Part shown: piece after piece, positions 3,305 through 50,077 of the stretch
Layout: the number at the start of each line of letters is the position of its first letter
Position numbering within the stretch: the stretch's first letter is position 1
NCBI GenBank assembly: GCA_024279945.1
Contig: JAJRRA010000003.1
Location: forward strand, 1-64,000
DNA length: 64,000 nucleotides
Source: Gammaproteobacteria bacterium
GTDB lineage: Bacteria > Pseudomonadota > Gammaproteobacteria > Xanthomonadales > SZUA-36
Reading direction: 5' to 3'
Notes under the pieces: model-generated
What the model was told of the DNA's origin: nothing
What the model saw: the letters and a program-made list of their open reading frames with translations, nothing else
The model's database searches: none
Position numbers and translations under genes: made by a program

Positions 3305-4141
3305 ATGACATCCCCTTCCATTTCCTTCGAATTCTTTCCGCCTCGAACAGCGGAACAGCAGTTGATCCTGGAATCGACCTGGCAGAAGCTGTCCCACCTG
3401 AACCCGGCCTACCTTTCGGTTACTTTTGGGGCTGGGGGATCAACCCTGGATGCGACCCGGGAAACGGTTGAGGCCCTGATCAGGGAGTCGGGCGTACCGG
3501 TGGCTCCGCATATTTCCTGCATGGCGCAGCATCGGGAAATGCTGCGTGACATCCTGCAATCCTATCGCGACAAGGGTGTGAATCGCCTGGTTGTGCTGCG
3601 CGGTGACCGGCCAGATGGAATGGAGGGCCCCGGGCCCTTTCAGTACGCCAATGAACTGGTCGCTTATGTGCGTGAGGAGTTCGGGGATCACTTCCATATC
3701 GAAGTCGCTTGTTACCCGGAATTCCACCCCGAATCTGCAACGCCACAGTCTGAATTGATGTACTTCAAGGCTAAGGTTGAGGCCGGGGCCAATGGCGCCA
3801 TCACGCAGTATTTTTATAATCCGGACAGCTATTTCCGCTTTGTGGATGACTGCCGTGGCATGGGCATAGACATCCCGATCACACCGGGCATTATGCCGAT
3901 TACCAACTACAAACAGCTTTCCAGGTTCTCCGGCATGTGCGGAGCCGAAATACCGCAATGGATACGCCGGCGTCTGCAAGGATTCGGTGATGACGGTGCG
4001 GCCATTCGTGAATTCGGCCTGGATGTGGTCACATCATTGTGTGAGCGCCTGCTGGAGGGCGGGGCGCCGGGCCTGCACATTTACACGCTGAACCGCGCCA
4101 ACGCCAGCATGCTGCTGTGGCAAAGACTGACCCAATTGTAA
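3305..4141 (+). CDS. metF: 5,10-methylenetetrahydrofolate reductase
   Basis: MetF reduces methylene-tetrahydrofolate to methyl-tetrahydrofolate with a flavin cofactor, providing the methyl group for methionine synthesis. The 278-residue protein begins with the family motif SFEFFPPRT. It has FGAGGST, HISCMAQ, and the strongly conserved LVVLRGDRPDG segment, and it spans the whole TIM-barrel length (Escherichia MetF is 296). The ATG at 3305 lies 55 bp after the ahcY stop. The gene closes the methyl-cycle operon and converges on the asparaginase-like gene, with 23 bp between the two stops. Confidence 0.96.
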   Translation: MTSPSISFEFFPPRTAEQQLILESTWQKLSHLNPAYLSVTFGAGGSTLDATRETVEALIRESGVPVAPHISCMAQHREMLRDILQSYRDKGVNRLVVLRGDRPDGMEGPGPFQYANELVAYVREEFGDHFHIEVACYPEFHPESATPQSELMYFKAKVEAGANGAITQYFYNPDSYFRFVDDCRGMGIDIPITPGIMPITNYKQLSRFSGMCGAEIPQWIRRRLQGFGDDGAAIREFGLDVVTSLCERLLEGGAPGLHIYTLNRANASMLLWQRLTQL

Positions 4142-4164
4142 GAGGTCGCTTGCGGCTGGTTCCA

Positions 4165-8673: not shown

Positions 8674-8738
8674 AATGTAAGAGCCCGCTTGCGGGCGACT
8701 GTTCCAGAGATTTTCGCCCGCAAGCGGGCTCTTACATT
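8674..8738. repeat. Long REP-like palindrome (copy 1)
   Basis: Two perfect 25-bp arms (8674-8698 and 8714-8738) face each other across 15 bp. Each arm contains its own small palindrome GCCCGCTTGCGGGC. The same arm sequence (GTAAGAGCCCGCTTGCGGGC and complement) recurs at 26305-26373, and a related form at 21126-21240. The right arm contains the stop codon of the HNH gene. It lies between convergent genes, so it can act as a bidirectional terminator or mRNA 3' stabiliser. Confidence 0.9.
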
Positions 8739-21125: not shown

Positions 21126-21240
21126 CGGCCGCAAGCGACTGTAAGAGCGCCCTTGGGCGCGACCAGACTTTCGGCCGCAAGCGACTGTAAGAGCGCCCTT
21201 GGGCGCGACCAGACTTTCGGCCGCAAGCGACCTCTTACAA
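21126..21240. repeat. Tandem REP-like repeat cluster (copy 2, variant)
   Basis: A 46-bp unit starting CGGCCGCAAGCGAC occurs at 21126, 21172 and, truncated, at 21218. Each unit contains GTAAGAGCGCCCTTGGGCGCGA, a variant of the arm found in the repeats at 8.7 and 26.3 kb. The cluster fills the gap between the convergent MATE and PspC genes and touches the PspC stop codon at 21241. Confidence 0.88.
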
Positions 21241-25538: not shown

Positions 25539-26309
25539 ATGTTCAAGATCGCTTCATGGAATGTCAATTCGCTGAATGTGCGTTTACCGCATGTCATTGC
25601 ATGGTTGGATGCGGCACGACCCGATGTGCTGGCATTGCAGGAGACTAAGTTGACGGATGACCGCTTTCCGGTGCAGGAATTTCTGGACGAGGGTTATGCC
25701 AGTGTATTTTCCGGGCAAAAAACCTATAACGGGGTGGCAATTCTCAGCCGCGAGGAAGCGCTGGACCCCGTCACCGATATCCCTGGCCTCGATGATCCAC
25801 AGCGGCGTATTCTGGCGGTAACGGTGGGTGATATTCGTATCGTCAATCTTTATGTGGTGAATGGCAGCGAAGTTGGCTCAGAAAAATTTGAATACAAACT
25901 TCATTGGCTCGATCAGGTAACCGCATGGCTGGCGAGTGAACTCAAGCAGTTCGAAAACGTGATTGTGCTGGGTGATTTCAATATCGTACCGGATGACTGT
26001 GATGTGCATGATCCTGAAGGCTGGCGCGACAAAATTCTTTGCAGCGCGCCGGAACGTGAAGCCCTGGGTAAAATTCTGGAGCTTGGTTTTGAGGATACGT
26101 TCCGGCTGTTTGAGCAGCAGGAGAGGACCTGGAGTTGGTGGGACTACCGCATGAATGCTTTTCGCCGCAAGATGGGCCTGCGCATCGACCTGATACTGGC
26201 CTCAAACGCCATGGCCCAACGCTGTACTGCAAGCTATGTTGACATTGAGCCCCGGCGCCAGGACCGTCCCTCAGACCACGCCCCTGTCATTGCTGAATTC
26301 AATATGTAA
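25539..26309 (+). CDS. xthA: Exodeoxyribonuclease III / AP endonuclease
   Basis: The enzyme repairs abasic sites and removes blocked 3' ends. The 256-residue EEP-fold protein has SWNVNSLNVRLPHV, LQETKLTD (metal Glu), NLYVVNGSEVGSEKF, GDFNIVPDDCDVHDP, WWDYRMNAFRRKMGLRIDLIL and the C-terminal SDHAPV histidine motif. AAGGAG precedes the ATG. The stop codon falls inside the left arm of a REP-like palindrome that separates it from the convergent glutaredoxin gene. Confidence 0.95.
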   Translation: MFKIASWNVNSLNVRLPHVIAWLDAARPDVLALQETKLTDDRFPVQEFLDEGYASVFSGQKTYNGVAILSREEALDPVTDIPGLDDPQRRILAVTVGDIRIVNLYVVNGSEVGSEKFEYKLHWLDQVTAWLASELKQFENVIVLGDFNIVPDDCDVHDPEGWRDKILCSAPEREALGKILELGFEDTFRLFEQQERTWSWWDYRMNAFRRKMGLRIDLILASNAMAQRCTASYVDIEPRRQDRPSDHAPVIAEFNM

Positions 26310-26373
26310 GAGCCCGCTTGCGGGCGATCATTATTCAGGTCTGATGCGTTTCGCCCGCAAGCGGGCTCTTACA
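26305..26373. repeat. Long REP-like palindrome (copy 3)
   Basis: Arms 26305-26327 and 26351-26373 are perfect 23-bp complements with a 23-bp spacer and are the same sequence as the arms of the copy at 8674-8738. The left arm contains the xthA stop codon and the right arm ends one base before the glutaredoxin-rhodanese stop codon. As at 8.7 kb it separates two convergent genes. Confidence 0.9.
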
Positions 26374-36879: not shown

Positions 36880-37689
36880 TCAGTCCAACAGCCCCCACTG
36901 TGTACCGGGCGTTTGATAGTGGAAGGGGATCGGTCCTTCCATTTTGCCGTTCATGAACTGGTAAACACTTGGTTCGGTGCTTGAGTTCAGCTCCTCCGGC
37001 GGGCCTTCTCCGGCAATTTTTGCCGAAGCAATAATGTAGCAGTAGTCTACCAACTTGCTCATCTGATCTACATTGTGCGTGACCACGATACTGGTCAGCC
37101 CCAGGGCATCGTTGGTTTCACGCATTAGTGTCCGGATGGTGGAAACTGCAATTGGATCCAGGCCAGTCATGGGTTCATCGTAAAGCATGATGCGGGGGTC
37201 TAGCACAATAGCCCGGGCGAAAGCCACCCGCCGTGCCATGCCACCCGACAACTCATGAGGCATGCGATCCTCAATGCCGCCTAAACCCACTGCGCTGAGT
37301 TTGCTCATCACCAATCGGCGAAGTAATGGTTCTGGCAGGTCGGTGTGCTCACGCAAAGGTGTGGCAATGTTTTCAAACACCGTCAGATCAGTAAACAGCG
37401 CTCCGTCCTGCAGCAAGACCCCAATGTTGCGGCGAAAGTGGTGCAGTTCACGGTCAGACATCGCTGATATCATCTGCCCATTAACCTCAATGGTCCCCGC
37501 GTCTGGCTTCAGTTGCCCTGAAATCAGCCGCAGAATGGTTGTTTTTCCGACACCACTCGGACCCATGAACGCAACAATGGAACCCTGCTGGATATCCATG
37601 CTGACACCATCCAGGATGGTTTTGCGGCCGCGACGAAAGACCAGGTTCCGGACACGGATGGCTGTTGTGTTTGGTTTTGCCTGTTCCAT
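36880..37689 (-). CDS. mlaF: MlaF ATPase
   Basis: The ATPase of the Mla transporter (269 residues) has Walker A MGPSGVGKTT, Q-loop LLQDGALFTDLTVFEN, signature ELSGGMARRVAFARAI, Walker B IMLYDEPMTGLDP and switch THNVD. It is the first gene of the mlaFEDCB-mlaA operon. A strong rho-independent terminator 94 bp upstream ends the noncoding transcript that lies before it, so the operon must start from its own promoter in that 94-bp gap. Confidence 0.95.
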   Translation of the reverse strand: MEQAKPNTTAIRVRNLVFRRGRKTILDGVSMDIQQGSIVAFMGPSGVGKTTILRLISGQLKPDAGTIEVNGQMISAMSDRELHHFRRNIGVLLQDGALFTDLTVFENIATPLREHTDLPEPLLRRLVMSKLSAVGLGGIEDRMPHELSGGMARRVAFARAIVLDPRIMLYDEPMTGLDPIAVSTIRTLMRETNDALGLTSIVVTHNVDQMSKLVDYCYIIASAKIAGEGPPEELNSSTEPSVYQFMNGKMEGPIPFHYQTPGTQWGLLD

Positions 37690-37782
37690 TATGGGTAATG
37701 ACCGGTCTACCGCTGTTGTCGAATAGTAATTGTATTACGAATCTGACCCGGAAAATGCGGTTAATGTTTCATTTTTTTGGAC

Positions 37783-37813
37783 AAAAAAAGAGAGGAGGCG
37801 TAAGCCTCCTCTC
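37783..37813 (-). terminator. Rho-independent terminator of the repeat-rich RNA
   Basis: On the minus strand a perfect 10-bp stem (GAGAGGAGGC / GCCTCCTCTC, loop TTAC) is followed by seven T residues. The plus strand has no T-tract after the stem, so it ends transcription travelling from 38.7 kb toward mlaF. Confidence 0.92.
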
Positions 37814-38100
37814 CGTAGAAGTATCGGAACTCCGCTGATGGTGGACTACAGATCCTCCTGGGCCTTTCCAACTTCACCGGCTCTCAGCTCTCTGCTGCTG
37901 GCCTCCGGTCACGGGGCTTCTTTCCCGTGTTTCTTTATTGACGCTAAGTAGCGACATCTCTCAGCCTTTCGGTTCCACTGGCTTGCGCCTGTTTCCCCGT
38001 CGGCTTCCTGGACTCTCGTCCTTTCCACCTGTCGGTCCTTCCGGCTTGCGCTTTCCGGTCCGGTGGTTGTCAGTTGCCGAAGCTTCTTCCAACCTTTAGA

Positions 38101-38236
38101 TCTTTCTGAGCCGAAGCCCTTTCCGGTTTTCCAATCTTTCTGAGCCGAAGCCCTTTCTGGTTTTCCAATCTTTCTGAGCCGAAGCCCTTTCCGGTTTTCC
38201 AATCTTCCTGAGCCGAAGCCCTTTCCGATCTTCCTT
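38101..38236. repeat. 34-bp tandem repeat, four units
   Basis: Units begin at 38101, 38135, 38169 and 38203 with TCTTTCTGAGCCGAAGCCC or one-base variants (plus strand). On the minus strand each gives a GGAAAGGGCUUCGGCUCAG hairpin and a GGAAAACC linker. Two diverged 34-bp units recur at 38401 and 38435. Units are directly adjacent, without spacers. Confidence 0.9.
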
Positions 38237-38400
38237 CCTTCCTGAGTCCTAACCTGGGCCGAAACCTGGGATAAAACCCCTTTCGATCTTCTTTCCTTCC
38301 TGAGTCTTAACCTGAGCCGAAGCCTGGGATAAAACCCCTTCCGATCTTCCTTCCTTCCTGAGTCTTAGCCTGGGCCGAAGCCCGGAATAAAACCCTTTCC
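38227..38400. repeat. 58-bp tandem repeat, three units
   Basis: Units begin with GATCTTC at 38227, 38285 and 38343, exactly 58 bp apart. Each is a 34-bp-type unit expanded by 24 bp that adds a second GG/CC hairpin and extra CTTCC triplets (GGAAG on the RNA strand). Substitutions often preserve stem pairing. Confidence 0.88.
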
Positions 38401-38689
38401 GATCTTTCGATCTTCCTGAGCCGAAGCTCTTTCCGATCTTTCGACTTTCCTGAACCTGAGTTCGTTCCAGTCTGTGGCATATCGAGACTTACACCTCTTG
38501 GCGTCTATCTCAAGGGATCGCGTTCTCCCTCTCGAGTCACCCTTATCAGTGGTACGACCGGCAATTACAGAGTCCGGTCTGGGTGACGTACTCAGTACCA
38601 CCTGAGCACTTGTCCGCTTTTCTGTTGCCCTTCGCTGCCTTCCGGCGGGTCGGCCGTCCAGCTGATGGGCTTCTTCGAACGGGGGATTA

Positions 38690-38718
38690 AAACTACTCCC
38701 GCGCTCCGGTGTTGTCAA
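38690..38718 (-). promoter_or_regulatory. Sigma-70-type promoter of the repeat-rich RNA
   Basis: On the minus strand TTGACA (38718-38713), a 17-bp GC-rich spacer and TAGTTT (38695-38690) form a promoter with a perfect -35 and a weak -10. AT-rich sequence lies upstream, as in stable-RNA promoters. No GacA/UvrY-type TGTAAG palindrome is visible upstream. Predicted start is about 38683. Confidence 0.6.
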
Positions 38719-39002
38719 CGGCAAATATTTCATAGTTATCGGGCATTTCTCAAGGTTAGTCTCAGGTGAAATTTCCAAGTTGCTGAATAGCATAAGAACC
38801 TGCAAGTTTGGCAAAATATTTTTTTGCGATGAAGCGAATTTGTTGCGAGTAAGCGAATCTATTTTCTTCGGGAATGTTGAAAAGTAGAATGACAAGGTTC
38901 TGAAAATCAGAGTTTGCGAAAAGGCTGATATTATTGTTTCCGTTACTGGGTATTGCCATTATCCTGTTACCCAGGGAGCAGTACGGGATGAGAGTTGAGT
39001 AG

Positions 39003-49648: not shown

Positions 49649-50077
49649 TCAGTCCTGCTCGTCTGATTTACACATTGGCCCCATGCCCGGCATTTCTGGG
49701 TAACAGGTGATGCCATTGTCGCCCTGTTGCAGAATATTGCCCTGATGGTCTTTCACGGTTGCATGGTCCGCAACGGCGGCCGGCGCGGCGCTCAGTGCGC
49801 TGGCGATCATGGCTTCCCTGTCGCCGGCCATCGGTTGGTCCTGCTGGTCTGACTTGCACATCGGGGCCATGCTGGGCATTTCTGGGTAACAGGTGATGCC
49901 ATTATCACCCTGTTTCAGAATATTGCCTTGATGGTCCTTCACGGTTGCATGGTCTGCAACGGAGGCTGGTGCGGCACTCAGTGCGCTGGCGATCATGGCT
50001 TCCTTGTCGCCGGCTATGGCCGTTCCGGCACCGAGCAGGCAAAAAGCGGTACAGAATTTGATGAAGGTATGGTTCAT
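49649..50077 (-). CDS. Exported protein of two near-identical 60-residue repeats
   Basis: The 142-residue protein has a signal peptide (residues 1-22) and two copies of a domain running from AMIASALSAAP to PMCKSD (residues about 26-76 and 88-138) that differ at only a few positions. Each has a conserved ATVKDHQGNIL(K/Q)QGDNGITCYPEMP core and two cysteines. A single-copy version of this domain is known as an uncharacterised exported protein in environmental bacteria. DNA identity of the two copies is also high, implying a recent tandem duplication. It follows rquA on the same strand after a 70-bp gap. Confidence 0.75.
   Translation of the reverse strand: MNHTFIKFCTAFCLLGAGTAIAGDKEAMIASALSAAPASVADHATVKDHQGNILKQGDNGITCYPEMPSMAPMCKSDQQDQPMAGDREAMIASALSAAPAAVADHATVKDHQGNILQQGDNGITCYPEMPGMGPMCKSDEQD

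Follow-up and report, generated by a model that had tools for sequence, protein, structure and literature searches.

The window considered here, a stretch of 64,000 nucleotides of contig JAJRRA010000003.1 from a member of the Gammaproteobacteria, carries on its minus strand a segment rich in GGA triplets and hairpins, which the initial annotation read as an unusually long, repeat-expanded sponge RNA for CsrA or another GGA-binding protein. This reading raises the question of which part of the RNA is kept among relatives, and what kind of RNA that part would make it. All features of the RNA gene described below lie on the minus strand, and coordinates are those of the window.

Direct reading bears out the promoter proposed for this segment, which consists of TTGACA (38718-38713), a 17-nt spacer and TAGTTT (38695-38690). 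The same layout (38690-38718) is common to the homologues: 29 of 30 have TTGACN together with TANN(T/G)T according to a pattern search that presupposes this form, and reading shows the same in L020. A simple promoter scan of the window did not list the minus-strand promoter at 38690-38718, because TAGTTT fits TATAAT at three of six places and the scan requires four; the assignment thus rests on conservation among homologues and not on the scan. With transcription starting at about 38684, as judged from the promoter spacing, the RNA would span 37783-38684, and the proposed gene of about 900 nt holds up as 901 nt without a conserved reading frame between promoter and terminator. The intrinsic terminator (37783-37814) likewise stands, with an 11-pair stem at 37814-37789 followed by a T run, and 6 of 10 stem pairs show changes on both sides. 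A coding gene is rejected, as no consistent open reading frame exists among 29 members, in which the longest sense frame ranges from 31 to 146 codons. The folding energy of the whole RNA of the window is modestly better than that of shuffled sequences (z -1.88; reached by 0 of 20 shuffles), and for the stretch with the array-less homologue L046 folding is clearly better than in shuffles (z -3.61; 0 of 100). It is very probable that the stretch is a real, structured and independent RNA gene of a new class.

The class is called new in the sense that no Rfam 15 family matches it above threshold, and its function may prove to be of a known type. Rfam scans covered the whole window at gathering thresholds, where no match above threshold was found, as well as positions 37600-39000 at E values up to 5 and the homologues L046, L109 and L019 at E values up to 10. 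In these four permissive scans all matches fell far below the family thresholds, and the kinship with CsrB or Rsm RNAs raised by the initial annotation gained nothing, none of these families being listed in the window, L046, L109 or L019. A weak match to STnc290 over the 3' terminator end recurred in three of the four permissive scans (E 0.22, 7.4 and 3.4) and is taken as a resemblance between terminator hairpins. The class was also not found in the open-licence literature, in searches partly aimed at other questions.

Homologues were detected by a DNA search in 27 of 61 genomes (the genome of the window and 60 relatives), all of the same family, here termed f1. The conserved block on the 5' side, module A (described below), was made into a covariance model (R1), which matched 33 of 39 f1 genomes. 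Of the 22 with a completeness of at least 90% and a contamination of at most 5%, it matched 21; the 6 of 39 without a match include one genome of good quality, G005. In the order, a second model (R2) matched 36 of 250 genomes, namely the 33 of family f1 and three of a second family, f5, in which the RNA is thus present in 3 of 4 genomes. As R2 was built with L109 and L110 of f5, the better scores of these two follow by construction, and the genome G433 lies outside the model but is a congener of G051. In the class, the genome of the window was the sole match of both models among 369 genomes, apparently the same 369 in both searches; all searches above 40 genomes used stricter filters, on which absence elsewhere rests. 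A match in G060 (E 0.07) was dropped, as the locus L111 reads as protein-coding and gave no match with the richer model. Two MAGs yielded two matches each (G061:C14 and G061:C31; G035:C261 and G035:C152), in which the RNA sits at or close to a contig end; this may reflect two copies, a strain mixture or an assembly break.

A core-pattern scan of named genomes returned 29 stretches, every record of which is titled as a MAG and labelled Lysobacterales, Xanthomonadales, Oceanospirillales, Chromatiales, Gammaproteobacteria or Proteobacteria, apart from one 'Caldithrix' record (L046) that is probably misbinned. For two stretches the source is given as an isolate with the name SZUA-36, and family f1 is most likely the GTDB family SZUA-36. 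One homologue record is prefixed SHZL01, a name that a published study places under Lysobacterales; SZUA-36; SHZL01 (PMC11080526).

Upstream of the promoter, a conserved region (38776-38857) contains two TTCGCTTNNTCGCAA sites (38824-38838 and 38843-38857) and TATTCAGCAACTTG (38776-38789). In 29 of 30 f1-type members the TTCGCTT site (TTCGCTTNNTCGCA, at most one mismatch) precedes the -35 hexamer by 110-121 nt, with a TATTCA--AACTTG block separating it from the promoter. At the same tolerance, the search for the site was negative for L020, whose available upstream DNA is short, and for L109 and L110, and the site sits closer to the promoter in L099-L102. These conserved sites point to regulated transcription of the RNA. 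A wider TTCGCTTNNTCGCA regulon was considered and set aside: the whole genome has three exact sites, two of them upstream of the RNA gene, and the third is about what chance would give (an estimate of 0.5, with 0 for a reversed control pattern). Separately, DnaA-type boxes (TTATCCACA) were observed near the RNA promoter at L025:3399-3475, L028:3945-4021, L022:3944 and L046:1056 among 21 loci scanned. A replication origin, considered on account of these boxes, gained no support in the window, there being no GC-skew turn and no TTATCCACA box in L001.

The element that is conserved among members is not the GGA triplets but a folded core of about 330 nt, which consists of two modules. Covariation across relatives is present in both, the observed number of pairs with two-sided changes being reached by 0 of 500 shuffles in each. 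In module A (38502-38655; 27 sequences, 33 pairs), 95.6% of 891 cells are paired and 15 of the 33 pairs show two-sided changes, vs 7.0 in shuffles, and slid partners pair in only 30-42%. Helix H1 (38588-38609) has such changes in 7 of 7 pairs. Two pairs at helix ends fail in about half of the rows: the innermost pair of H1 (columns 57-66; 13 of 27) and the last pair of H3 (columns 86-103; 14 of 27). Within this module, the H1 loop UGGUAC (38600-38595) pairs with GUACCA (38555-38550) in a pseudoknot, PK1. Although 99.4% of its cells are paired, PK1 scarcely varies in the main alignment and draws its support from few changes; by reading, its partners appear to change together in f5, with GGUGGU/ACCACC in L109 and GUGGUA/UGCCAC in L110.

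Module B (37783-37942) includes the terminator and comprises 30 sequences, 29 of them distinct, and 32 pairs, with 94.2% of 927 cells paired and 16 of 32 pairs changed on both sides, vs 9.3 in shuffles. The number of further pair types in this module was matched by 20 of 500 shuffles, and at columns 94-109 the bases do not pair in 20 of 29 rows. The module A alignment (A1) omits the truncated L014, and that of module B (A2) omits L014, L024, L051 and L068, for which the sequence set contains no module B; by reading, L014 does have a module B but lacks a complete module A. The divergent loci L099-L102 and L109-L110 are contained in a third alignment (A3) only. The shuffle controls of both modules leave relatedness among members in place, and the slide control is biased towards the structures, since these were read from the very sequences on which they are tested.

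The two modules are linked by a second pseudoknot, PK2 (37890-38572), a helix of 6 bp in which CUCUGU of the H3 loop in module A (38572-38567) pairs with GCAGAG of an internal loop in module B (37895-37890; A90-95/B55-50). This pairing (UCUGC/GCAGA) was noticed by eye and then returned by a scan of all column pairs that did not name it. It is paired in 179 of 180 cells and shows 12 two-sided changes, vs 4.7 in shuffles (0 of 500), including a C-G/U-A exchange at A90-B55; slid versions pair in 62-117 of the 180 cells. Among 20460 inter-module windows, pairing of 90% or more together with eight or more two-sided changes is seen only in PK2 and its two register neighbours. Comparison of the aligned sequences shows that modules A and B fold separately and that a long-range pseudoknot ties them together. 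Three highly conserved stretches of the core, GAGAUAGACG, GUCGAUAAA and AAGCGGAG, are drawn unpaired.

The GGA-rich hairpin array of the window (site 2; 37943-38501) occupies the tip of an inter-module hairpin. Its repeats are much as first described: Tandem Repeats Finder reports a 34-nt unit in 4.0 copies (38100-38234) and a 58-nt unit in 3.5 copies (38219-38420), and the UUCG and GNRA hairpins are seen as nine tetraloop hairpins of at least 4 bp, vs 0.56 in shuffles (maximum 4). Over 26 arrays, 81 such hairpins were counted, vs about 4.7 as the sum of shuffled means, and for several short arrays single shuffles matched the observed count. The proposal that units spread by duplication while their stems stayed paired is supported by this excess in sum and by the copy number of the 58-nt unit, which varies from 3.5 in the window to 2.6 in the congener L002 and 3.6 in the near relative L056. 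Other repeats in the window include dispersed TGTAAGAGC-type and inverted CGCAAGCG-type sequences, REP-like by eye, at 4137-4154, 8676-8736, 21126-21239 and 26305-26373, and a 186-bp unit, a multiple of three, in two tandem copies with 89% matches (49652-50014).

Among the 30 members that have both modules, arrays occur at either of two sites. A site-2 array of 200-559 nt between the modules is found in 10 members (g1, g5, g6, g12 and the record L056). Another 17 (g2, g8, g9, g11, g14 and two records) carry extra hairpins at site 1, within the 5' domain, where the 5' segment ranges from about 95 nt, typically with two hairpins, to over 400 nt in L020, the longest 5' array (L020:96-561), which shows that either site can expand strongly. 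The remaining three, L008 and L011 (about 360 nt) and L046 (334 nt), have no array, as is the case for g3 and g13. Where the window has 559 nt at site 2, site-1 members have 7-8 nt (18 in L022), taken to be the loop in a hairpin like GACGC-GAAA-GCGUC. By this comparison of sequences, the GGA-rich array is a lineage-specific insertion at a tolerated hairpin tip and not a part of the core.

A possible trace of expression is found in the IMG/VR contig L068 (4759 nt), which encodes an ssRNA-phage replicase, a coat-like protein and a maturation protein; past the replicase gene, the same strand continues with module A of the RNA, preceded by the 5' array and followed by other sequence. The genomes of ssRNA phages consist of RNA, and L068 therefore presumably derives from an RNA library. 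This one chimeric or recombinant contig, which may be an assembly chimera or a true recombinant, suggests transcription of the RNA. By eye, the gene strand of L068 opens with 18 nt that resemble 23S sequence; the 3' end of L068 gave no E. coli match, and the contig gave no Rfam match up to E 0.1. A search of viral contigs with a module-B pattern was negative, and the replicase search brought up no contig other than L068.

A core with two pseudoknots and conserved stretches drawn unpaired could belong to a catalytic RNA or to the cofactor of a processing enzyme, in which the arrays would be peripheral expansion segments. RNase P RNA offers a parallel, since it combines a conserved pseudoknotted core with lineage-specific peripheral helices, and the variable periphery of the present RNA recalls it. 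A divergent RNase P RNA or 6S RNA was nevertheless rejected, as both are found elsewhere in the genome over family cut-offs, and the RNA itself has no Rfam match to RNase P or, above threshold, to any other family. Moreover, nothing indicates a substrate or a reaction, and the RNA occurs in two families only. Such a catalytic or cofactor role is unlikely.

The sponge reading, in which the GGA triplets of a repeat-expanded RNA titrate CsrA/RsmA, begins from the triplets themselves. The early estimate of roughly 45 was accurate, with 45 GGA counted in 901 nt, vs shuffle means of 27.8 (mononucleotide; z 4.1) and 36.5 (dinucleotide; z 2.2), so that the excess over dinucleotide content is modest. 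Of 29 members, L025, L026 and L028 have fewer GGA than their dinucleotide shuffles, and L012 and L046 have about as many; in the other 24, z lies between 1.0 and 2.8 in 23 and is 0.8 in L016. L020, the start of which differs from the promoter pattern, was left out of the GGA and tetraloop counts and added for the analysis of internal loops below. L001, L002 and L056 contain 6-8 copies of the motif CAGGA(U/A/C)G, compared with nine in E. coli CsrB, but the other 26 members contain 0-2. Furthermore, csrA was found in 31 of 39 family genomes, that of the window included. GacA/UvrY recognises a box of the form TGTAAG-N6-CTTACA. Searched for in the window, this box was not found between 35128 and 40699, and the window as a whole has 20 matches with at most three mismatches (14.2 expected).

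The placement of the triplets also differs from that in CsrB. A review of CsrA places CsrB repeats in the loops of hairpins or in other single-stranded stretches, and notes that 51 of 55 selected ligands had GGA in a hairpin loop (PMC7652899). In sampled structures, 2.6 of the 45 GGA of the window RNA are in hairpin loops, vs 10.2 of 22 in E. coli CsrB, and unpaired GGA of all kinds amount to 15.9 of 45 in the window RNA, 17.4 of 32 in the array folded alone and 15.4 of 22 in CsrB. In the array alone, 15.0 of the 32 are unpaired outside hairpin loops and 2.4 inside them. Across 27 arrays with 113 hairpins (stems of at least 3 bp), hairpins stand on an outer stem across a purine internal loop in 36 cases (at least 3 bp) and 27 cases (at least 4 bp), vs 16.1 and 7.3 with permuted right flanks, where 0 of 500 permutations reached the observed values; some of the hairpins so arranged are alternatives with common flanks. 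Five of the 12 hairpins in the array of the window have this arrangement. Frequent loops are GGAAA/AGGAA (5) and GGAA/GGAA (3), with GGA facing GGA, and G-A pairing is proposed within them. The GGA outside these loops lie in linkers and could bind a protein.

Like CsrB and RsmX, RsmY and RsmZ, the RNA is a free-standing gene with many GGA triplets and hairpin repeats; in contrast to them, its GGA are mostly outside hairpin loops and not conserved, and what is conserved is a pseudoknotted core. The initial proposal of a sponge for CsrA or another GGA-binding protein is therefore not supported as the conserved role, given the GGA statistics, the placement of the triplets and the core. As the main function, titration of CsrA is rather improbable, and it is retained as a minor rival. 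A secondary CsrA role in the group of the window is possible, given the presence of csrA in most family genomes and the roughly half of array GGA that may be unpaired.

The conserved stretches drawn unpaired might instead belong to a regulatory RNA that base-pairs with messages, and the conserved promoter and upstream sites, which suggest regulated expression, would suit such a role. However, the size of the RNA and its long-range tertiary pairing are unusual among base-pairing regulatory RNAs, and this function is quite improbable.

The genomic neighbourhood bears on whether the RNA acts in cis or in trans. Of 28 flanks examined, 22 have genes of the mla operon after the RNA, in its own orientation, and three are cut off by contig ends; in the window Pfam identifies an ABC ATPase, MlaE, MlaD, MlaC and MlaA. 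In g7, by contrast, all three loci are away from mla; L100 and L101 adjoin an aspartokinase/decarboxylase fusion gene, and L101 also ychF. In the two f5 loci examined, the RNA lies between glnE and a probable RAYT gene, so named by sequence reading. It is worth recording that the f5 RNA is divergent from this RAYT/TnpREP-like gene (L112:8222-9163; L113 near 2582), and that for the one such protein scanned, from L112, Pfam reports just a DnaA C-terminal domain slightly below cut-off. Since neighbours differ between lineages, the RNA is not tied to one operon and probably acts in trans. A cis-acting leader or attenuator of the downstream mla lipid-transport operon, suggested by these flanks and by an mlaF-like gene that begins about 94 nt past the terminator on the same strand, is rejected as highly improbable in view of the changing neighbours, the covarying terminator and a spacing that varies, to roughly 580 nt before the mlaF-like ORF in L099.

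A trans-acting structural RNA is favoured by the combination of a knotted core, tolerant arms, a promoter of its own with upstream sites, and a changing genomic context. Two separately folding modules, joined by PK2 and with PK1 inside module A, would make a compact core. The hairpin tip between the modules tolerates insertion, and the group of the window has filled it with a tandem array of tetraloop hairpins, while other genera have expanded the 5' domain rather than the inter-module tip. The array would then form arms on the core, and part of the GGA triplets would be structural, facing each other in purine internal loops. Such an RNA could serve as a structural scaffold, either with a protein or as a dimer of itself, instead of pairing with messages or soaking up CsrA. 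Taken as a whole, the reading of the locus as an independent, trans-acting, large structured RNA of a class outside Rfam, acting as a structural scaffold or oligomer, is given a probability of roughly 0.55; its scaffold or oligomer mechanism, proposed from sequence, is tentative and somewhat short of even odds.

The candidate site of self-association is a hairpin of module B (37840-37858), in which four of six stem pairs change on both sides. Its apical loop is a palindromic CUGCAG in 34 of 38 copies, comprising 27 of 30 f1-type members, L014, three of three in g7 and three of three in f5; outside the f1-type members the loop was located by reading and not by alignment. The palindrome is absent from L012, L022, L099 and the copy of the window, where the loop is CUGUAG (37851-37846) and dimer pairing would need two G-U pairs. 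By analogy with known kissing loops, the palindrome suggests dimerisation. A more specific proposal is doubtful, namely that CUGCAG kissing loops would join this new class of RNA into homodimers or larger particles, while its arms evolve freely in length by tandem duplication at two alternative sites of the double-pseudoknot core.

The analogy is drawn from other large bacterial RNAs. According to one report, OLE, GOLLD and ROOL form homo-oligomers held partly by kissing loops, which are symmetric in OLE and GOLLD and connect identical chains there, and ROOL has a disordered and poorly conserved linker (PMC12286853). The present RNA resembles these three in being a large bacterial RNA with a covarying fold of many helices and with pseudoknots. 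It differs from them in having no Rfam match, other hosts and a core of only about 330 nt, in that its variable part is a tandem hairpin array, and in that its oligomer is a prediction from a loop.

New classes of large structured RNA are rare, and the functions of OLE, ROOL and GOLLD are themselves unsettled. The RNA described here illustrates that a GGA-rich, hairpin-rich RNA can resemble a CsrA sponge while its conserved part indicates otherwise. Its core covaries strongly, and hairpin arms can expand from it at either of two sites. As these arms have grown partly by recent tandem duplication among close relatives, the family would offer a natural experiment in how a structured RNA gains expansion segments.
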